64,000 bases of DNA from Vitreoscilla filiformis (lineage in GTDB: Bacteria; Pseudomonadota; Gammaproteobacteria; Burkholderiales; Burkholderiaceae_C): contig NZ_CP022423.1 of the NCBI RefSeq assembly GCF_002222655.1, positions 310,001-374,000 of the forward strand, given 5' to 3'. This document shows positions 18,262 to 28,927 of the stretch, one piece after another (the first letter of the stretch is position 1; each line of letters starts with the position of its first letter). Under the pieces are notes generated by a model. The model worked only from the letters and a program-made list of their open reading frames with translations. It did no database searches and was not told where the DNA came from. The translations under genes and the position numbers were made by a program.

Positions 18262-19833
18262 ATGAGCGCCCTACCCTTCCGCCGCAAGCTGCCGATTGGC
18301 ATCCAAACCTTCCGCATCATCCGCGAGGGTGGTTACTACTATGTGGACAAAACCGGGCAGGCCGTCGATCTGGCCGAACGGGGTCGGGCCTACTTCCTGA
18401 GCCGCCCTCGGCGCTTCGGCAAAAGCCTGCTGGTCGATACCTTCAAAGAGCTGTTCGAAGGCAACCGGGCGCTGTTCACCGGATTGGCCGCCGAATCGCG
18501 CTGGGACTGGGCGCAGCGTCATCCCGTCATTCACCTCAGTTTTTCAGATGGTGTGTTGCAAAGCCGCGCCGAGCTGGATCGGCGCATCGCCGAGCTGCTG
18601 CACGGCAACCGCGAAGCGCTGGGCCTGCCGCTGCCAGAGCGCATTGCACCTGGGGATGTGACGAGCAATTTCGTCGATCTGATCCGCCAAGCCCACCGTC
18701 AACATGGCGCCCCGGTGGTGGTGCTGATCGACGAGTACGACAAACCCATCCTCGACAACCTCAGCGTGCCCGACACCGCCCGCCAGATGCGTGAAGGTCT
18801 GAAAAACCTTTACTCCGTCCTCAAGGGAGCGGATGCACATTTGCGCTTCGTCTTCCTCACGGGCGTGAGCAAGTTCAGCAAGGTGAGCCTGTTTTCGGGC
18901 CTGAACCACTTGCAGGACATCACCCTGGACAAGCGCTGCGCCACCCTGTGCGGTTACACCGAACACGAGCTGAAAACGGTGTTTGCACCCGAGTTGCTTG
19001 GGCTGGATCCGGAGGAAATTCGCCGCTGGTACAACGGCTACAACTGGTTGGGCGAAGGCGTTTACAACCCGTTCGACGTGCTGCTGTTGTTGGACAAGCG
19101 CGAGTTCCAGCCCTACTGGTTTGAAACCGGCACGCCGACGTTTCTGGTCAAGCTCCTGGCCGAGCGCCAGTTCTTCACCCCCGATCTGAGCCAGGTGATG
19201 GCGATGGAGCAGCTCATCGGCTCCTTTGATGTGGATGAAATCCCGCCTGAAGCGCTGCTGTTCCAGACCGGCTACCTCACGCTGCGCGGACGCGAGGAAA
19301 TCTCACGGGCGCAGTGGGTCTACACCCTGGGCTATCCGAACCGCGAGGTCGAAACCAGCCTGAACGGCGCCCTGCTCAAAGGCTACGGCGTGCCGGATCG
19401 CCCCGCGCTGGCCACCCGTCTGCAATTGCTCAAACTGCTGCGCAACGGGGATGCGGCCAGTCTGCGGGCACTGTTCCACGCTTTTTTTGCCAGCATCCCG
19501 CACGACTGGTATCGCCGCAACGAGCTGGCGGGCTTCGAGGGCTACTACGCCAGCATCGTTTACAGCCACTTTGCGGCGGCGGGGTTGGAGATCCGGCTGG
19601 AAGATGCCACCAACCACGGTCGCATCGACATGACGGTGTTGGCCTTCGGCACCGTCTGGCTGTTCGAGTTCAAGGTGGTGGAACTCGTGCCCGAAGGCCG
19701 CGCCCTGGCGCAACTGCAAGCCCGGGGCTACGCCGAAAAATACCGCGCACGCGGCGAGCCCATCCGCCTCATCGGGGTGGAGTTCAGCAAGGTGGATCGC
19801 AACATCGTCGGCTTTGAGGTGCTGGAGGCGTGA
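18262..19833 (+). CDS. AAA-family ATPase with C-terminal PD-(D/E)XK nuclease-like domain
   Basis: The 523-residue product fits the AAA-ATPase_like plus PDDEXK_9 family. It begins with LPIGIQTFRIIREGGYYYVDKT, then Walker A SRPRRFGKSLL (near residue 50), Walker B VVVLIDEYDKP (near 155), and a C-terminal nuclease-like core with Asp in GRIDMTV and the E-x-K pair in LFEFKV (residues 453-473). These proteins are common, often multicopy and patchily distributed; their role is unproven, with mobile-element or defence functions suggested. The stop overlaps the start of the ModE-like regulator by four bases, so the two are translationally coupled. Confidence 0.85.
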   Translation: MSALPFRRKLPIGIQTFRIIREGGYYYVDKTGQAVDLAERGRAYFLSRPRRFGKSLLVDTFKELFEGNRALFTGLAAESRWDWAQRHPVIHLSFSDGVLQSRAELDRRIAELLHGNREALGLPLPERIAPGDVTSNFVDLIRQAHRQHGAPVVVLIDEYDKPILDNLSVPDTARQMREGLKNLYSVLKGADAHLRFVFLTGVSKFSKVSLFSGLNHLQDITLDKRCATLCGYTEHELKTVFAPELLGLDPEEIRRWYNGYNWLGEGVYNPFDVLLLLDKREFQPYWFETGTPTFLVKLLAERQFFTPDLSQVMAMEQLIGSFDVDEIPPEALLFQTGYLTLRGREEISRAQWVYTLGYPNREVETSLNGALLKGYGVPDRPALATRLQLLKLLRNGDAASLRALFHAFFASIPHDWYRRNELAGFEGYYASIVYSHFAAAGLEIRLEDATNHGRIDMTVLAFGTVWLFEFKVVELVPEGRALAQLQARGYAEKYRARGEPIRLIGVEFSKVDRNIVGFEVLEA

Positions 19834-21029: not shown

Positions 21030-22601
21030 ATGTTGGACACCAACACCCAAGCCCAGCTGCAAGCCTATTTCCAGCGCATCAGCCAGCCCGTGGAGCTGGT
21101 GGCCAGTTTGGACGATCGCCCCGCTTCGGCTGAAATGCGCGAGCTGCTCACCGAAGTGGCCGCCGCAGCACCCGGCAAGATCAGCTTGCGCGTCGATGGC
21201 CAGGCCGAACGCCGTCCCTCGTTCCAAATCCGCCGGGCCAACGGTGCGGGGGGCGAGGTGCGTTTCGCCGCCATCCCCATGGGCCATGAATTCACCTCGC
21301 TGATTCTGGCGGTGCTGTGGGCCGGTGGTCATCCACCCAAGGTCGAGCCGGAGGTGATCGAGCAGATCAAGGCGTTGGAGGGGGACTTCCGCTTCAAGGT
21401 CTACATGTCCCTGACCTGCCACAACTGCCCGGACGTGGTGCAAGCCCTCCACCTCATGGCCACCTTCAACCCGCGCATCCAAGCGGTGGCGGTGGATGGT
21501 GGGCTGTTCCAAGCCGAGGTCGAAGCCAAACAAATCATGGCCGTGCCCTACGTCACGCTGAACGGTCAGCCGTTCGGCTCGGGCCGCATGGAGGTGAAGG
21601 ACATCCTCGCCAAAATCGACACCGGCGCCGCCAAGCGCGAAGCCGCCGCCATGAACGCGAAGGAGGCCTTCGATGTGCTGATCGTCGGCGGTGGCCCGGC
21701 TGGCGCGGCGGCAGCGGTGTACGCAGCGCGCAAGGGCATCCGCACCGGTTTGCTGGCCGAGCGTTTCGGCGGTCAAACGCTGGACACGCTGGGCATCGAA
21801 AACTTCATCTCGGTGCCGGAAACCCAAGGCCCGAAATTCGCCGCCGCCCTGGAAGCGCATGTGCGCACCTACGACGTGGATGTGATGACACAACAGCGTG
21901 TCGAACAGCTCATCCCCGCCGAACAGACCGGGGGGCTGACCACGGTCAAACTGGCCAACGGCGGCGAGTTGAAGGGCCGCACGGTGATCGTGGCCACGGG
22001 CGCCCGCTGGCGCAACATGAATGTGCCCGGTGAAGCCGAGTACAAAACCAAGGGCGTGGCCTACTGCCCGCACTGCGACGGCCCGTTGTTCAAGGGCAAG
22101 GACGTGGCGGTGATCGGCGGCGGTAACTCCGGCGTCGAAGCGGCGATCGACTTGGCGGGCATCGTCAAAAGCGTGACCTTGCTCGAATTCGCCGACCAAC
22201 TGAAGGCCGATCAGGTGCTGGTGAACAAGTTGAAGAGCTTGCCCAACGTCACCATCCACGTGAATGCCCAGACCACCGAAGTCATCGGCGATGGTCAGAA
22301 GATGACCGGCCTGCGCTGGAAGGATCGCGTGAGCGGCTCCGAACACGAAGCCGCACTGGCGGGGGTGTTTGTGCAGATCGGCCTGGTGCCCAACACCGAA
22401 TTCGCCAAGGGCGTGGTGGAGATGAACCGCTTCGGCGAAATCATGGTGGACGCCAAGTGCCACACCAGCGTGCCGGGCGTGTTTGCGGCGGGGGACTGCT
22501 CCACGGTGCCCTACAAACAAATCATCATCGCCACGGGCGAAGGGGCCAAGGCGGCGCTGTCGGCTTTCGATCACCTGATCCGCACGCCGGCAGCCGCCTG
22601 A
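21030..22601 (+). CDS. ahpF: alkyl hydroperoxide reductase flavoprotein subunit
   Basis: NADH-dependent FAD disulfide reductase that recycles AhpC. The 523-residue product has the N-terminal double thioredoxin-fold domain with its redox pair in [11 protein letters not shown], then the FAD-binding [17 protein letters not shown], the thioredoxin-reductase-type dithiol CPHCDGP, the NADH-binding [15 protein letters not shown], and the C-terminal FAD motif [15 protein letters not shown]. Length fits AhpF. It is not adjacent to ahpC, but the two share a promoter and operator layout. A GAAAGGA ribosome site precedes the ATG. Confidence 0.96.
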
Positions 22602-22622: not shown

Positions 22623-25600
22623 TCAAGGCCCAGCGCACTCGGGGGGGCGATCGGATGTGCCCGCCGGGAAGAACAGTTGACACTCGGTCGGGTGCGTGTG
22701 GCGGTGCAGCGCCTGCAACCGCGCCCCCATCCATGCCGACAACTGCGCGGGGCTGTAGGTGGTGCGCGTCACGTCCCAGAGGCGCAGGGTTTTGTCCACG
22801 CCGAGTGTCATCACCTGATGGCCCTCGGCCATGAATTTGGCGGCCAAGATGCCTTCTTGGTGGCCTTTCAATTCGGTCAACAACACCCCTTCGCGAGCGC
22901 GCCACACGCGGGCCGTTTCGTCGTCGCTGGCGGTGAGGATGCGTTGGCTGTCCGCACTGAACACCACCGATCGCACGGTGCCCGTGTGCCCCGTCAGTTC
23001 GGTCAGCAAAACGCCTCGTGCCACATCCCAGACCTTGGTCGTGCCATCGGGGCTGCTGCTGGCCACCAAACCACCATCGGGGCTGAACACCACCGACAAC
23101 ACCCGGTCTTGGTGACCTTTGAGCTCGGCCAGCAACGCCCCGTCCGATGCTTGCCAAATCCGCACGACGCGGTCATCGCCCCCCGTCACGATGCGCCGAC
23201 CATCCAGGCTGAATGCCGCCGCCCACACGGCCCCCACATGGGCGGCGATCGTCACGCGGGGCGGCCCACCCAACAAACCGTCGGAAACGCTGACCTGCCC
23301 GCCATCGTTGGCCGTCAGGATGCGGGAGCCGTCGATGTTGAACGCGACCACGCGCACCCAATCGCGCTGTGGGGGCAGCGTCAAACTCAACTGGCCGGTG
23401 GCAACGTCCCACACCCGCACCAGCCGGTCGGTGCTGCCTGTCACCACCCGGTTGCCCTCAAAGTTGAACGCCGCCACCAGGGTCGAAGCATTGGCCGGAT
23501 TGACCCATTCGGCCAACACCTTCTCATTCTGAACATCCCAGACCCGCGTCAACGCATCCGCCCCAGTGGTCACGAGGCGGTGGCCTTGGGTGTCGAACGC
23601 CGCGTTGCGGATCCAGTCCCGCAGATCGTCGATGGTGCGCAGCGGCATGTCCTTGCGCGCACTCCACACCCTCAGGGTGCGATCCGAGCTGGCCGTGACG
23701 ACACGGGTGCCGTCCGGGCTGAACGCCGCGCCACGCACCGCCGCCGCGTGACCACGCAACTCGGTCAGCAATGCCCCTTTGCCTTTGGTCTCGCGGATGT
23801 CCCACAAGCGTGCGGTGCGATCGTCGCTGGTGGTCACCAGTTGGGTGCTGTCGGGTGAGAACACCGCCGACAGCACCCAATCTTGGTGGCCCTTGAGCTT
23901 CAGCAAAGGCCGCTGAAGCTGGTTCACATCCCACACCCGGGCGGACTTGTCCGCGCTGGCGGTGACCAAGCGCGTGCCATCGGGACTGAAAGCCACCCAG
24001 CGCACCATGTCATGGTGGCTGCGCAGCTCACCGACCAGCTCACCGGTGGCTGCCCGCCACAGCCGAGCGGTGCGGTCATCGCTGGCGGTGGCCACCCATT
24101 GACCGTCTGGGCTGAACACCGCCGAACGAATCGGCCCGGCATGCCCTTTGAGTTCGAACGCCAGCGTGGCGGTGTGCCCATCCCACTGCCAGATGCGGGC
24201 GGTAGCGTCGTCGCTGGCGGTCAGCACCCGTTGGCCTTGGGCATCCCAGGTGCTGGCCCAGACACCACCGGCATGTCCGCTCAAGGTGGCCAGCAGCGCC
24301 CCTGTGCGTCGATCCCACAGCCGGGCGGTGCCATCGGTGCTGCTGGTGAGCACCTGCGTGCCGTCGGGGCGGAACGTCGCCGTGGTCACCGGCCCATGGT
24401 GGCCGGTCAAATTCGCCAGCACCTGACCCGTCGGCACGGCCCACACCCGGGCGCTGCGATCGTCACTGGCCGTCACCACTGCTTGACCATCTTGGCTGAA
24501 CGCCACCGTGCGCACCAGCCCCTGATGACCCCGGAATGCCCGAATTTCTTGCCCAGTCTGGGCATGCCACAGACGCGCCGTGTGGTCCTCGCTGGCCGAC
24601 ACGATGTGGGTACCGTCCCCACTGAACGCTGCGGCGAACACCCGATCTTGGTGGCCCACCAAACCCAGCAAGGCCGCTTGAGCGGCGTCGGCGGCCTTGA
24701 ACGCCGCCGCACTGACGTTGCCCCCTTGCTGACTCACCCTCAACGCCGCGTGACCCAACAACAAGGCCCGGTCGGGATCGCCCAGCAACAGCGAGGCCGT
24801 CACCCCGGCGGCCAGCTCACCCGCTCGGGCCTGGCGCATCGCCGCCTGCGCCTGCACGTACAAACTGAAGAAGCCCACAGCCACGCCACTGGCCAGCACC
24901 GTGGTGCCCACCAAAATTTGGTTGGTTCGCGTCCAGAACGTGGGGCGGTGCAGGCGAACCCAGTCCATGCCGAACAATTGTCGATACAGGCCATTGCGCC
25001 ACTGCAAACACCCATCGGCCCGCCGCATCAGCCCCGACAAGCGCAAGCGGTTGTGAACCACCGAGGTGTCCTGCACCCTCACCCGCCGACCGCGCAGCAC
25101 CCGCTCGCACACATCGAACAGTTCCGTTTGCAACGGGGCGGGGGTTCGGAGCAGGTAGTCGGCCACGAACTGGAAGTGCGGATCGCCGCGCCCCTTTTCG
25201 CTCAACAGCTCATGCGCCACCAAGGCAGGAACCTCTGCCGGATCGGTCACGGCCTGGGCACTGAGCAACGCACACAATTTTTGCGTCAGGTAGGGCTGGC
25301 CGCCGCTCCAGTGCAACACGGCGGCCAGCAGCGCGTCGGTGGTGGCTGGGGGCTGTTGCAGTGCGGCCAGCAAGGGCCGCGCCTCAGCAGGAGAGAAGTC
25401 GGTGATCTCCACACGCTGCCCGATGTTGAAAGGGGTGCGGCTGGGATCCCGAATCAACTCTCCCGGCGTGGCCACCCCCAGCAACACAAACGACAGTCGC
25501 GCCAACTCTGGCCGCTGCGCCCGCTGGTTGTGCAGGGCCCGGATGAGGGCAAAAAAATCATCGGTGAAATCCAGCCCCAGGGTGGTGTCAATTTCATCGA

Positions 25601-26027
25601 CCAGCACCGTGATGCGCCCCGGCACCTCGGGCAGCAGCACCTCGGTGACATACGCCCACATGCGCTGCGCCAGCGGCAGATGCGCATGGGCCTCCCACCA
25701 ACTGAACACGTCGGTCTGCGGCATGCAGGCGGACTCGATTTCCGTCAGCACCCCCAGATACCAGCTCTCTGCACTGACTTGCTGGCTGCCGATGGTGGTG
25801 AGGTCGATGGCCACCACGATCTGCCCCTCGGCCCACAAAGCCGCTGTGGTGCGGGCCATGAGGCTGGACTTGCCCATCTGCCGCGAGGACAGCACATAAG
25901 CAAACTCACCCTGGCGGCACAGCGCCAGCAACTCCGCATCACAAGGGCGGGTGATGTAGCTGGGGCTGTCGGGCGGCAACGTCCCCCCGGTGACGTAGCG
26001 AAAAGCAGGGGCATGAACGGCGCTCAC
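22623..26027 (-). CDS. AAA-like ATPase with membrane segment and WD40 propellers
   Basis: The 1134-residue product has three parts. Residues about 10-350 are an AAA-like/STAND-type ATPase with Walker A SSRQMGKSSLM and Walker B ITVLVDEIDTTL, ending in a winged-helix-like segment (LRLSGLMRRADGCLQWRNGL). One membrane span follows at about 366-392 (ILVGTTVLASGVAVGFFSLY). From about 450 to the end I count 15 WD40 repeats (for example GHQDRVLSVVFSPDG ... ASDDRTARLWD), enough for two propellers; repeats 9-11 are the most diverged. It follows the TIR gene by 15 bases on the same strand and shares its RQMGKSSL ATPase type. A sensor or scaffold role is plausible; the function is unknown. Confidence 0.88.
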   Translation of the reverse strand: MSAVHAPAFRYVTGGTLPPDSPSYITRPCDAELLALCRQGEFAYVLSSRQMGKSSLMARTTAALWAEGQIVVAIDLTTIGSQQVSAESWYLGVLTEIESACMPQTDVFSWWEAHAHLPLAQRMWAYVTEVLLPEVPGRITVLVDEIDTTLGLDFTDDFFALIRALHNQRAQRPELARLSFVLLGVATPGELIRDPSRTPFNIGQRVEITDFSPAEARPLLAALQQPPATTDALLAAVLHWSGGQPYLTQKLCALLSAQAVTDPAEVPALVAHELLSEKGRGDPHFQFVADYLLRTPAPLQTELFDVCERVLRGRRVRVQDTSVVHNRLRLSGLMRRADGCLQWRNGLYRQLFGMDWVRLHRPTFWTRTNQILVGTTVLASGVAVGFFSLYVQAQAAMRQARAGELAAGVTASLLLGDPDRALLLGHAALRVSQQGGNVSAAAFKAADAAQAALLGLVGHQDRVFAAAFSGDGTHIVSASEDHTARLWHAQTGQEIRAFRGHQGLVRTVAFSQDGQAVVTASDDRSARVWAVPTGQVLANLTGHHGPVTTATFRPDGTQVLTSSTDGTARLWDRRTGALLATLSGHAGGVWASTWDAQGQRVLTASDDATARIWQWDGHTATLAFELKGHAGPIRSAVFSPDGQWVATASDDRTARLWRAATGELVGELRSHHDMVRWVAFSPDGTRLVTASADKSARVWDVNQLQRPLLKLKGHQDWVLSAVFSPDSTQLVTTSDDRTARLWDIRETKGKGALLTELRGHAAAVRGAAFSPDGTRVVTASSDRTLRVWSARKDMPLRTIDDLRDWIRNAAFDTQGHRLVTTGADALTRVWDVQNEKVLAEWVNPANASTLVAAFNFEGNRVVTGSTDRLVRVWDVATGQLSLTLPPQRDWVRVVAFNIDGSRILTANDGGQVSVSDGLLGGPPRVTIAAHVGAVWAAAFSLDGRRIVTGGDDRVVRIWQASDGALLAELKGHQDRVLSVVFSPDGGLVASSSPDGTTKVWDVARGVLLTELTGHTGTVRSVVFSADSQRILTASDDETARVWRAREGVLLTELKGHQEGILAAKFMAEGHQVMTLGVDKTLRLWDVTRTTYSPAQLSAWMGARLQALHRHTHPTECQLFFPAGTSDRPPECAGP

Positions 26028-26042
26028 AGTGCGGCCCCCAGG

Positions 26043-27575
26043 TCACAGCACACGGGTCAGGTACAGGCTGTAGAGCGGACAGCGGGCCACCAAACGCCCC
26101 CCGCTCTCCTTCAACACCCCGCCCGCCATCAAACGATGGCGCTGTGCCGTGTCGGCCATGCCGGTGCGCAGGGCGCTGCGCATGGCCATGAGCAAATCCG
26201 GACGGGCGTGCAACCGCGCCAGCATGGCCCGCAGATGATCCCCAAAGGGGCCGCTTTCCGAATCGGCTTCGCGCAGCAGATCCAGCAGCGTGTGGCGCCG
26301 CTTGCTCAACAAGTACAGCGCTTTGCGCATCAAGTAGGGGTGTCCAGCCAGCAGTTCGTACAACTGCGCCAGTTCGCCAGCGCCCAACGGGGCCCCATGG
26401 GAAGCGTTCATCTGCATGACCTCCTCCCGCGTGAAATCCTCCAACCGCAGGTTCGTCCCGACGTTGAACGGGGATTGGCTCAGGTTCTCGATCAGCATGT
26501 GCGGTTCGGTCGAGATCACCTGTGCCAGCGCGAACAGCTTCCACGCCGGGCGCATGGCCCGCATGTTGTGCCAACTGCGCAACATGCCGAAGAAGTCCGA
26601 GCTGGTGGGGGCGTCGAGCAGGGCGTCGGCCTCATCCAGCGCCAGCAGCAAGCCACCAGGCTGACACGCGGGCAAGATGCGGCGCTCCATGAAACGGGTG
26701 GCTTTTTGCAGTGGCGGCAACGGCGCAGCCCAGTGTTTGTCCAGCTCGGACGCCAACCCCAAGGCGTCTTCCACCAGATAGCAAAACTGGTGATACAGCG
26801 TATTCGGGTCAGCCAACTCTGCCGTGCCAAATCCTTGGAAATCGACAAACGCCACTTGTTTGCCAGCGTGCTGGGCGCGTTGCATCACCCGACCCAACAG
26901 CGAACTCTTGCCCATCTGCCGTGGGGCTTGGATGGTGAGGGTGTAGCCCGCATGCTGCTGCTCTTCCTCCGCCACCCCGTCGGCCAGCCGCGTGACATAA
27001 AACGGCGATTCGGGCGAAATCGTGCCTTCTGGGGCTTCCAACGGCCCCCGGGGTGCCCCCGTGCCCAGCGCAGCGCGTGGGTTGGCAGAGGGCAACGGCA
27101 CATCGGCGGCCAGACCCGCACCACTCAGCGTAGGCGCGGGCAGATCGGCCAAACCGGTCACCGCACGGGTCAGTTCGGACAGCAAACGCTCATCGTCGGA
27201 CGGGTCACGCCACAAGGCGTAGTTCACTTGGTTCAGGCACGCGCCCAAGTCATACGGCAACGCCCCTTCAAAACGCACACGCACCGGCAGGATGACGGGC
27301 CGGGTGCCACTGCGCTTGCGCTGCTCCATGGCCATGCGCACTTCCTCGGCCACCATCTGGCTTTGCACCGAATGTTCGGACAGCAGCAGCACCAAAAAGT
27401 CCGCCGCGACCAGCTCTTGCTGGATGCGTTTGACCCAGTTTTCTCCCACCACCATGGTTTGATCGAGGAACACATCGTGGCCCTGTGCGTGCAAACGCGC
27501 CAACAGGCGCTCCGCCAAGGGTTGGTCGAACTCGGTGTTGCGCTTGTAGCTGATGAAAATGCGCTGGCGGGTCAT
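26043..27575 (-). CDS. TIR domain fused to AAA-like ATPase
   Basis: The 510-residue product begins with a TIR domain (residues 3-130: RIFISYKRN, GHDVFLDQ, ADFLVLLLSEHSVQS, a candidate catalytic Glu in MVAEEVRMAME, RPVILPVRV). A linker leads to an AAA-like ATPase with Walker A APRQMGKSSLL (near 225) and Walker B GLLLALDEADALL (near 310). Bacterial TIR domains often cleave NAD+ or signal in anti-phage immunity. The ATPase is of the same type as in the downstream WD40 protein, and the pair probably forms one operon. ATG 27575 is chosen because TIR similarity starts there. Enzymatic activity is not shown by sequence alone. Confidence 0.87.
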   Translation of the reverse strand: MTRQRIFISYKRNTEFDQPLAERLLARLHAQGHDVFLDQTMVVGENWVKRIQQELVAADFLVLLLSEHSVQSQMVAEEVRMAMEQRKRSGTRPVILPVRVRFEGALPYDLGACLNQVNYALWRDPSDDERLLSELTRAVTGLADLPAPTLSGAGLAADVPLPSANPRAALGTGAPRGPLEAPEGTISPESPFYVTRLADGVAEEEQQHAGYTLTIQAPRQMGKSSLLGRVMQRAQHAGKQVAFVDFQGFGTAELADPNTLYHQFCYLVEDALGLASELDKHWAAPLPPLQKATRFMERRILPACQPGGLLLALDEADALLDAPTSSDFFGMLRSWHNMRAMRPAWKLFALAQVISTEPHMLIENLSQSPFNVGTNLRLEDFTREEVMQMNASHGAPLGAGELAQLYELLAGHPYLMRKALYLLSKRRHTLLDLLREADSESGPFGDHLRAMLARLHARPDLLMAMRSALRTGMADTAQRHRLMAGGVLKESGGRLVARCPLYSLYLTRVL

Positions 27576-27718
27576 GGTGGGCTTTCTGCAATGCAGGCTG
27601 GATTGTCGCCACCCCGCAGGCCATTCCGCACAAAAAACCGGCAGCAATGCACACCACTGTGCCGCCCGATGCGGGACACGTCCTCCTAAACTGACCCGCC
27701 TTGCATTCGAGATCTGCC

Positions 27719-28927
27719 ATGAGCTGCTTCACCCAAGCCGCGCGCGCTGCGCGCATGAACCCGTCCATCCTGCGCGAAATTCTCAAGGTCACCGATCGGC
27801 CCGGCGTGCTCTCTTTGGCGGGGGGGCTGCCCTCGCCGCACACCTTCCCGGTCGAAGCCATGCGCGAAGCCACCGCCAAAGTGTTGGCCGACGCCCCACG
27901 CGAAGCGCTGCAATACGCCGCCAGCGAAGGTTTCGGCCCGCTGCGCGATTGGGTGGCCGCCCACTTGCGCGGCATGGGCTTGAAGGTCGAAGCCCATCAG
28001 GTGCTCATCACCACGGGCTCACAGCAAGGGCTGGATCTGGTGGGCAAAGTGCTGGTGGACAGCGGGGCGCCCGTGGCCGTCGAAACCCCGACTTACTTGG
28101 GTGCCCTGCAAGCCTTCAGCCCGTTTGAACCTTTGTTCACCAGTGTGGCCAGCGACTTGGACGGCCCCCTGCCCGACGCCATCCGCGCCCTGCCCCACGA
28201 TGCCCCCGGCACCCGTTTTTTGTACGTGTTGCCCAATTTCCAAAACCCCACCGGGCGCCTCATGCCCGAAGCACGACGCCAAGCGGTGATCGCCGCCGCT
28301 CAAGCGGCCCGCGTGCCGTTGGTGGAAGACAACCCTTACGGCGATCTGTGGTTCGACGCCCCGCCCCCGCCCCCGCTGGCCGCACGTTGGCCGGAGGGGG
28401 TGGTGTACATGGGATCGTTCTCCAAAGTGCTGGCGCCGGGGCTGCGCCTGGGCTACGTGGTGGCGCCGCCGGAGCTGTTCCCCAAGCTGCTGCAAGCCAA
28501 ACAAGCCGCCGATTTGCACACCCCCGGCTTCAACCAGCGGGTGGTGTACGAGGTGATCAAAGACGGTTTCTTGGATCGGCACGTTCCCACCATCCGCGCC
28601 CTCTACAAAACCCAGCGCGATGCCATGGTGCAAGCCCTGGCCCAGCACATGCCCGCTGGCACCGAATGGCGCGTGCCACAAGGCGGGATGTTCTTCTGGC
28701 TGCGTTTGCCCGAAGGATGCCCGGCCCTGGCGTTGCTGCCCCAAGCGGTGGCGGCTGGTGTGGCCTATGTGCCCGGGGAACCGTTCTACGCCCACGCGCC
28801 GGACAGCCGCACCGTGCGCCTGAGTTTCGTCACCCTGACCCCCGCACAAATCGATGAAGCGGTGGCCTTGCTGGGCCACGTGCTGCGCCGCCATTTGAAC
28901 GAAGACTTGCAAGCCCCCACGCCATGA
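27719..28927 (+). CDS. PLP-dependent aminotransferase of the LysN/2-aminoadipate type
   Basis: Fold-type I class I/II aminotransferase, 402 residues. It has LSLAGGLPSPHTFP near the N-terminus, the cofactor-contacting TTGSQQGLDL, YVLPNFQNPTG, and the Schiff-base Lys in MGSFSKVLAPGLRLGY. This pattern is that of free-standing relatives of MocR aminotransferase domains (2-aminoadipate, kynurenine or broad-specificity enzymes); the substrate cannot be told from sequence. ATG 27719 is preferred over an in-frame TTG at 27701. It overlaps the PhzF-like gene by four bases and is divergent from the TIR gene. Confidence 0.88.
   Translation: MSCFTQAARAARMNPSILREILKVTDRPGVLSLAGGLPSPHTFPVEAMREATAKVLADAPREALQYAASEGFGPLRDWVAAHLRGMGLKVEAHQVLITTGSQQGLDLVGKVLVDSGAPVAVETPTYLGALQAFSPFEPLFTSVASDLDGPLPDAIRALPHDAPGTRFLYVLPNFQNPTGRLMPEARRQAVIAAAQAARVPLVEDNPYGDLWFDAPPPPPLAARWPEGVVYMGSFSKVLAPGLRLGYVVAPPELFPKLLQAKQAADLHTPGFNQRVVYEVIKDGFLDRHVPTIRALYKTQRDAMVQALAQHMPAGTEWRVPQGGMFFWLRLPEGCPALALLPQAVAAGVAYVPGEPFYAHAPDSRTVRLSFVTLTPAQIDEAVALLGHVLRRHLNEDLQAPTP

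Follow-up and report, generated by a model that had tools for sequence, protein, structure and literature searches.

A paired TIR-AAA_35 and AAA_35-WD40 gene module of Vitreoscilla filiformis: a probable NLR/STAND-type switch divided over two ATPases

Two adjacent minus-strand genes in a 64,000-nucleotide stretch of Vitreoscilla filiformis DNA (NZ_CP022423.1, positions 310,001 to 374,000; hereafter the window) rather probably encode a two-protein switch of the type known from nucleotide-binding leucine-rich repeat receptors (NLRs) and signal transduction ATPases with numerous domains (STAND). Gene 1 would be the effector half, a TIR domain fused to an AAA_35 ATPase (AAAa), and gene 2 the sensor half, in which a second AAA_35 ATPase (AAAb) is followed by a predicted membrane span and a double WD40 propeller that probably lies outside the cytoplasm. 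What sequence and comparison provide for this reading is the composition of the two proteins, the common ancestry of their ATPases, their conserved pairing, their intact nucleotide-binding motifs and their swappable ends.

The pairing was followed in the best 80 of at least 519 TIR-AAA_35 relatives in the genome collection, a set chosen by gene 1 alone and containing many related members. An earlier note on this DNA had proposed that the two genes form one system and had named their being rarely found together as a reason to abandon the idea; a gene-2-type AAA_35 neighbour is present at 76 of the 80 loci, and the proposal is further borne out by parallel divergence and by a natural fusion. The partner lies downstream on the same strand in 73 loci. 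In 58 of these the two genes either overlap, in many cases by 4 or 8 nucleotides (nt), or are at most 150 nt apart (bigger overlaps stem from the choice of the longest frame); the partner follows at 156-843 nt in 14 and at 4547 nt in one (L067). It lies upstream on the same strand in two loci (L060, L072) and on the opposite strand in one (L049). Three of the four partnerless loci reach the contig end after 0, 150 and 262 nt, and at the fourth, the short contig L068, WD40 frames lie to either side. In the two Myxococcota loci with reversed gene order, L060 and L072, an additional WD40 gene of about 1500 codons lies downstream. Another Myxococcota locus (L124) has two gene-2-type copies in tandem, and on a Nostoc plasmid (L118:55-11361) a NACHT gene is followed by two tandem gene-1/gene-2-type pairs.

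The two ATPases diverge in parallel, with r 0.933 over 68 pairs, 0.905 over 46 cyanobacterial pairs and 0.863 over the 22 others, against best values of 0.36, 0.43 and 0.51, respectively, in 2000 permutations; the nearest neighbour is identical for both genes in 34 of the 68 pairs. The natural fusion, P0036, carries AAAb, TIR and AAAa on one chain (its first ATPase typed from the alignment). The reverse search covered 193 Myxococcota genomes, a strong gene-2-type match being one above 240 bits: the 17 such matches correspond, on reading by hand, to 15 loci, of which 13 have a gene-1-type ATPase a few kb away on the same contig, one (in G871) lies at a contig break and one (L123, in G723) is without a gene-1-type ATPase. 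The co-occurrence of gene 1 and gene 2 is not chance. That two unrelated genes became neighbours by accident could be argued from the low identity of the two ATPase sequences and from a distant TIR-AAA_35 gene of the window's family (L158:4263-5762 in G532, 27% identity) with no AAAb within the 10 kb examined, but this alternative is refuted by the pairing, the many overlapping start and stop codons, the fusion and the parallel divergence, and we regard it as highly improbable. The L158 gene nevertheless weighs against the two-protein reading, as does the fact that the correlation of 0.93 also includes shared host ancestry. In cyanobacteria the dependence may be one-sided, since the matches listed show no gene 1 next to some gene-2-type proteins of about 2000 residues.

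By hand assignment, the 80 loci belong to nine phyla: 53 to Cyanobacteria, 10 to Chloroflexota, five to Acidobacteriota, three each to Pseudomonadota, KSB1 and Myxococcota, and one each to Verrucomicrobiota, Calditrichota and Aminicenantes. Within the window's lineage the pair is rare and its distribution patchy; elsewhere it is common. Some gene 1 match, mostly to the TIR alone, occurs in 29 of 299 genomes of the family, and close full-length relatives occur in two, both with a partner: the window's genome and G411 (Roseateles oligotrophus S00239, locus L007, 59%). Three other genomes of the genus gave no full-length gene 1 match, and in the order an AAA_35 match was found in 7 of 399 genomes, above the curated cut-off in 4 and as an adjacent pair in 2. 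Copy number can be high, with 33 AAA_35 matches in one Scytonema genome (G689). Among plasmids, 37 records contain a match, seven with at least 80% coverage; no match was found among 50,697 phage records, and of 26 pattern matches in viral contigs one is a true relative (L154, 36%), itself beside an AAAb. Acquisition of the pair is suggested by a single observation, its patchy distribution: the flanking genes were never neighbours in 8 related genomes, and there is therefore no clean empty site to look for.

The features of the locus are as follows (window positions).

26043..27575, minus strand: gene 1, TIR-AAA_35 protein of 510 residues, the effector half with AAAa (open reading frame and Pfam; start by family alignment)
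27189..27560, minus strand: TIR domain, gene 1 residues 6-129 (Pfam)
27342..27344, minus strand: codon of Glu78, candidate catalytic residue (alignment column and PDB sequence match)
27354..27356, minus strand: codon of Met74 of the TIR domain (alignment column)
26055..27032, minus strand: AAAa, an AAA_35 domain, residues 182-507, with nucleotide-binding domain, helical lid and winged helix (Pfam and model)
26901..26927, minus strand: Walker A of AAAa, residues 217-225, APRQMGKSS (conserved K223, S224)
26028..26042, no strand: gap of 15 nt between gene 1 and gene 2 (sequence)
22623..26027, minus strand: gene 2, AAA_35-span-WD40 protein of 1134 residues, the sensor half with AAAb, GTG start (open reading frame, Pfam, model)
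24972..25985, minus strand: AAAb, an AAA_35 domain, gene 2 residues 15-352 (Pfam)
25863..25889, minus strand: Walker A of AAAb, residues 47-55, SSRQMGKSS (conserved K53)
24861..24917, minus strand: predicted membrane span, gene 2 residues 371-389 (hydropathy)
23658..24677, minus strand: first WD40 propeller, 8 blades, gene 2 residues 451-790 (strands and propeller matches)
22773..23654, minus strand: second WD40 propeller, 7 blades, gene 2 residues 792-1085 (strands and propeller matches)
22635..22682, minus strand: C-terminal pair Cys1116/Cys1131, the only Cys past residue 340 of gene 2 (sequence)

The longest frame of gene 1 runs over 26043-27647 from a TTG; the ATG at 27575 was taken as the start, being conserved across the family alignment. 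Pfam identifies TIR_2 (E 1.2e-22) and AAA_35 (PF14516, E 5.1e-87) in gene 1, and in gene 2 WD40 in 13 stretches and AAA_35 (E 4.4e-29 in a search with the first 400 residues). The predicted structures have mean predicted local distance difference test (pLDDT) values of 85.8 for gene 1 and 87.7 for gene 2; 60 propeller strands counted by hand in the latter make 15 blades, and the division into 8 and 7 follows from the strands and from matches to known propellers. The architecture given by the earlier note thus stands throughout: the same-strand neighbours with a 15-base gap are exact in the list of open reading frames, the TIR-ATPase fusion and the ATPase-WD40 protein agree with Pfam, RQMGKSSL occurs in both proteins, the 15 WD40 repeats match the blade count, and the claimed membrane span corresponds to a predicted hydrophobic stretch (mean Kyte-Doolittle 1.98).

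A common origin of the two ATPases had likewise been suggested, and alignment of AAAa with AAAb by hhalign (probability 100, E 5.4e-46, 28% identity over 323 columns) indicates that they are paralogues sharing ancestry over the whole domain length. Both have intact Walker A and Walker B motifs, as expected of a P-loop nucleotide-binding domain of STAND/NLR type: in AAAa, K223 is conserved in 81 of 81 rows, S224 in 80 of 81 and D314 and E315 in all 81, and in AAAb, K53 is conserved in 77 of 77 rows, D144 in 74 of 74 and E145 in 73 of 74 ungapped ones. The GxP motif in the helical lid, a trait of STAND ATPases, is present in both (G411 and P413 in 81/81 rows of AAAa; G243 in 72/72 and P245 in 71/71 ungapped rows of AAAb). 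Arginines beyond Walker B are conserved as well, R333 and R339 each in 81/81 rows of AAAa (R339 is missing from a few relatives in another alignment) and R163 and R169 each in 73/74 ungapped rows of AAAb; they are candidates for reaching the active site of a neighbouring subunit.

Structure comparison supports the earlier assignment to STAND-type ATPases, as AAA_35 is predicted to fold as an NLR/STAND-like core. Residues 187-510 of the gene 1 model align to CED-4, Apaf-1 and NRC4, with helical lid and C-terminal winged helix present, and the top whole-chain Foldseek match of gene 1 is the plant TIR-NLR RPP1 (TM-score 0.40). For gene 2, Apaf-1 is the second-best Foldseek match, behind a propeller, with the whole chain aligned (TM-score 0.30); the VIA-align list for this protein is filled by propellers. 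Such low scores count against a closer equivalence, since they mean that domains and their order are alike and their arrangement is different. The pair also departs from the usual STAND layout, in which effector and sensor share a chain. Gene 1 proteins stop at the ATPase, with a median of 2 residues beyond it and more than 20 in one of 81, and gene 2 proteins start with it, with a median of 5 residues ahead and more than 60 in two of 77. Because AAAa has no tail and AAAb no N-terminal extension, the effector-switch-sensor order of an NLR would here be divided over two paralogous switches.

A TIR domain without its catalytic residues had been named in the earlier note as an outcome that would refute its proposal. 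Glu78, within SxMVxxE, is however kept by 78 of the 79 ungapped rows. In 4c7m, the best PDB sequence match, it aligns with the Glu of SKQWPARE, at the catalytic position of TIR NADases. The usual motif of these enzymes is SxWxxxE, with a Trp, and it weighs against the assignment that Met74 replaces this Trp in 77 of 79 ungapped rows, as a near-invariant family trait. The TIR domain of gene 1 likely cleaves nicotinamide adenine dinucleotide (NAD+). Two related proteins (P0242 and P0243, Sorangium and metagenomic) are listed with SIR2_2, TIR_2 and AAA_35 on one chain, that is, with two NADase-type domains per switch. The window's genome holds a second TIR_2 match (G000:C1:2841590-2841952, L002), within an open frame of 1627 residues; the four AAA_35 matches of this genome lie away from it.

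Judged by domain content, relatives swap the effector end in gene 1 and the sensor end in gene 2. Loci for the effector end were picked partly since a pair was visible, and they serve as examples rather than as a rate. Beside gene-2-type genes, Pfam finds on the N-terminal side of gene-1-type ATPases Trypsin_2 (L119; by eye also L120-L122), CHAT (L110), CHAT with TIR (L013), Metallophos (L111), SIR2_2 (L112), a protein kinase (L116) and APH/TCAD9 (L126), and no domain in L105, L118 and L127. A search with the SIR2-AAAa protein of L112 returned mostly SIR2 proteins carrying other ATPases. Distant pairs in the window's family (L155, L156, L157) consist of an alpha/beta-hydrolase gene with a weak AAA match beside an AAA_35 gene; the hydrolase scores above the cut-off in L155 and L157 and below it in L156, and TPR replaces WD40 in both scanned partners (L155, L157). 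For the sensor end, 23 gene-2-type C-termini selected for no clear WD40 gave, among the matches listed, CHASE2 in 5, TPR_2 in 5, FGE-sulfatase in 4, protein kinase in 3, LRR_4, CHAT and WD40 in 2 each and histidine kinase in 1. On a plasmid of Candidatus Chlorohelix (L116:6203-8419), a gene-1-type ATPase with a kinase ahead and a LuxR-type helix-turn-helix (HTH) behind is preceded by a gene-2-type WD40 gene; kinase and HTH suggest a transcriptional output.

With regard to topology, the ATPase of gene 2 probably lies inside and its WD40 sensor outside the cytoplasm, an arrangement favoured by several features. In 60 of the 67 partners with a length of 540 residues or more, the span begins within residues 340-500. 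Lys and Arg in the 15 residues flanking it average 3.37 before and 2.02 after, the bias being before over after in 41 partners, the reverse in 8 and equal in 11. Of 25 uncut partners with at least 8 WD40 hits, 22 have two or more Cys within their final 70 residues, and in 15 of those partners the C-terminal pair are the sole Cys past residue 420, as are Cys1116 and Cys1131 in the window; this pair may perhaps form a disulphide. Finally, the slot of the WD40 domains is occupied in five partners by CHASE2, described as an extracellular receptor domain (PMC3501461, PMC8195603). A low Cys content of the propellers was also considered as a sign of outside location, but was weakened by controls, namely five further WD40 open frames from these loci, with 0 Cys in 578 residues, 1 in 615, 0 in 620, 0 in 153 and 4 in 159. 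Low-Cys propellers being general, the argument was narrowed to the charge bias and the pair of Cys at the C-terminus.

Several points weigh against an external sensor, in that the span was called by a hydropathy window and is absent from 7 of the 67 partners, the AlphaFold pLDDT falls below 50 at gene 2 residues 365-383, and some partner C-termini are probably inside, because three of 23 hold a protein kinase and one a histidine kinase. It is possible, although in our view doubtful, that the propellers are cytoplasmic, that the hydrophobic stretch is a mere tether or buried helix, and that gene 2 is a cytosolic Apaf-1-like receptor; the partners without span, the generally low Cys content of propellers, the kinases and the whole-chain alignment with full-length Apaf-1 would all suit this alternative. 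It is countered by the constant place of the span, the positive-inside bias, CHASE2 in the same slot and the C-terminal Cys pair.

For a sensor half that crosses the membrane, the following mode of action is proposed. Most likely, a signal would cause the membrane-bound ATPase to recruit or open the TIR-ATPase, and clustering of TIR domains would use up NAD+ or yield an NAD-derived signal. In the resting state, both AAAa and AAAb would be off. A ligand on the propellers would change the state of membrane-bound AAAb, which could then nucleate a mixed ring or a ring of TIR-AAAa, both halves retaining Walker A, Walker B and the arginines beyond it. The clustered TIRs would cut NAD+ and halt growth, or produce the NAD-derived signal. 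We infer topology, oligomerisation, NADase activity and a role in defence or cell death.

As to that role, anti-phage abortive infection, in which a phage product or envelope damage on infection would lead to NAD+ depletion by the TIR, is quite possible, if somewhat short of an even chance. Bacterial immune systems, known or predicted, include STAND ATPases that carry TIR, caspase-like or trypsin effectors (PMC10907252, PMC8195603), and the patchy spread of the pair and its plasmid copies point the same way. A search for neighbouring defence genes, as suggested in the earlier note, gave no sign of a defence island, however. Around 21 loci, genes were predicted simply as the longest frames, and of 144 frames chosen 140 were scanned against PADLOC (E up to 1e-10; four long frames left out); 62 PADLOC families appeared in these 140 neighbours, as compared with 101 in 130 genes of 20 control regions hand-picked at arbitrary places (same-genome control for 14 of the 21 loci), a control figure raised by at least one region with strong HerA/SIR2 hits. 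There is hence no defence-island enrichment, which weighs against a defence role, as does the lack of a PADLOC or NCBIfam system model covering the pair; multiple copies per genome, as in Scytonema, also suit roles in cell death or signalling. At the locus itself, the flanks on the opposite strand are ordinary genes by Pfam, an AhpF-like oxidoreductase (21030-22601) and a pyridoxal phosphate aminotransferase (27701-28927), and a promoter and terminator scan gave no signal above chance. Two genes from the pair, at 18262-19833 on the plus strand, the window encodes an AAA-ATPase_like domain (PF09820) with a PDDEXK_9 nuclease (PF08011), possibly a conflict-type gene.

A further explanation, conceivable to us but rather less than probable, is stress signalling or regulated cell death that does not have phages as its target. 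The membrane half would then sense a chemical cue or one from the envelope, and the TIR would signal via NAD or kill the cell. This explanation draws on the CHASE2 domains in place of WD40, on the kinase and LuxR-type HTH of the AAAa half in L116 as a regulatory output, and on the cyanobacterial origin of 53 of the 80 loci. On the other hand, the pair is rare and patchy in the window's lineage, unlike core signalling, its effectors are mostly destructive enzymes, and the CHASE2 partners are 37-44% identical to the first (a tentative assignment) and may represent a single event.

We tentatively extend the reading of a divided switch to a proposal that may well prove too broad: widespread bacterial "paired NLRs", in which a transmembrane sensor STAND (WD40, CHASE2 or other) would read the cell exterior and, via mixed ATPase assembly, switch on a helper STAND with a freely swappable N-terminal effector (TIR, SIR2, caspase-like, trypsin, phosphoesterase or kinase). 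In plant sensor-helper NLR pairs the core is duplicated and the ends are divided between two proteins; if true, the proposal would make the present pair their bacterial counterpart, but acting across a membrane. If the sensor half crosses the membrane, bacterial NLR-type receptors would be able to read signals beyond the cytoplasm, and the swappable ends would offer natural experiments in the activation of one STAND ATPase by another.

Among known systems, none was found with exactly this composition, in agreement with the earlier note: no PADLOC or NCBIfam model spans the pair, the matches being to TIR only, below the curated cut-off or weak (PADLOC matched nothing in gene 2, and in gene 1 only the TIR, apart from two weak P-loop matches), and a literature search, with subscription papers outside its coverage, returned no description of an AAA_35 pair or of AAA_35 with TIR and WD40. 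ThsA, SAVED or APAZ-Ago, the partners in Thoeris, CBASS-TIR and SPARTA, were not found adjacent to gene 1 at this locus, where the outer neighbours are the oxidoreductase and the aminotransferase; Thoeris, TIR-SAVED and TIR-APAZ (SPARTA) in turn lack an AAA_35 ATPase. The resistosomes of plant TIR-NLRs (RPP1, Roq1, WRR4A) resemble gene 1 in the order of TIR and NLR core, RPP1 being its best whole-chain match, yet plant TIR-NLRs carry their own C-terminal LRR sensor, which here resides on a second protein. Apaf-1 is not known to have a membrane span, and its N-terminal CARD contrasts with the gene 2 chain, which is without effector or adaptor. The likeness of gene 2 to Apaf-1 and CED-4 lies in the ATPase core and, following the description of Apaf-1 anatomy, the double WD40 propeller (PMC13174449). 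Swarozyc and TEP1 have a TIR-like NADase, to which TEP1 adds NACHT and WD40, but with DUF4062 rather than TIR_2 and AAA_35, and on one chain (PMC13174449). The MoxR-vWA ternary and bDLD/EAD STAND conflict systems share overlapping effectors and many multicellular hosts, their core being however a MoxR-vWA pair or an adaptor domain instead of an AAA_35 pair (PMC7159879, PMC8195603).

The nearest description found is the nSTAND2 operon, a predicted counter-invader system of two adjacent genes, each with a STAND ATPase and with exchangeable effectors on one of them (PMC8195603). Its ATPase is PF20702, said to be nearer to CR-ATPase/DAP3, and the NTP motifs are eroded in one of the two ATPases, the one bearing GT4 or HEPN (PMC8195603), whereas both are AAA_35 and intact here; PF20702 had no match at E up to 10 in AAAa or AAAb, and none in the window's genome. 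The "Npun2340/2341 family" of MNS STANDs in the same paper may be the same ATPase family as the AAA_35 pair (PMC8195603). Characterised antiviral STAND proteins such as Avs and bNACHT, with Avs3 among the Foldseek hits of gene 1, likewise join a STAND switch to an N-terminal effector and a C-terminal sensor, usually all three on one chain (PMC10907252), whereas here the parts are split over two ATPases, the core being duplicated, the ends shared out and the pairing spread across nine phyla. What is probably new in the present pair is an NLR/STAND effector system split over two intact ATPases, with a sensor that probably crosses the membrane.

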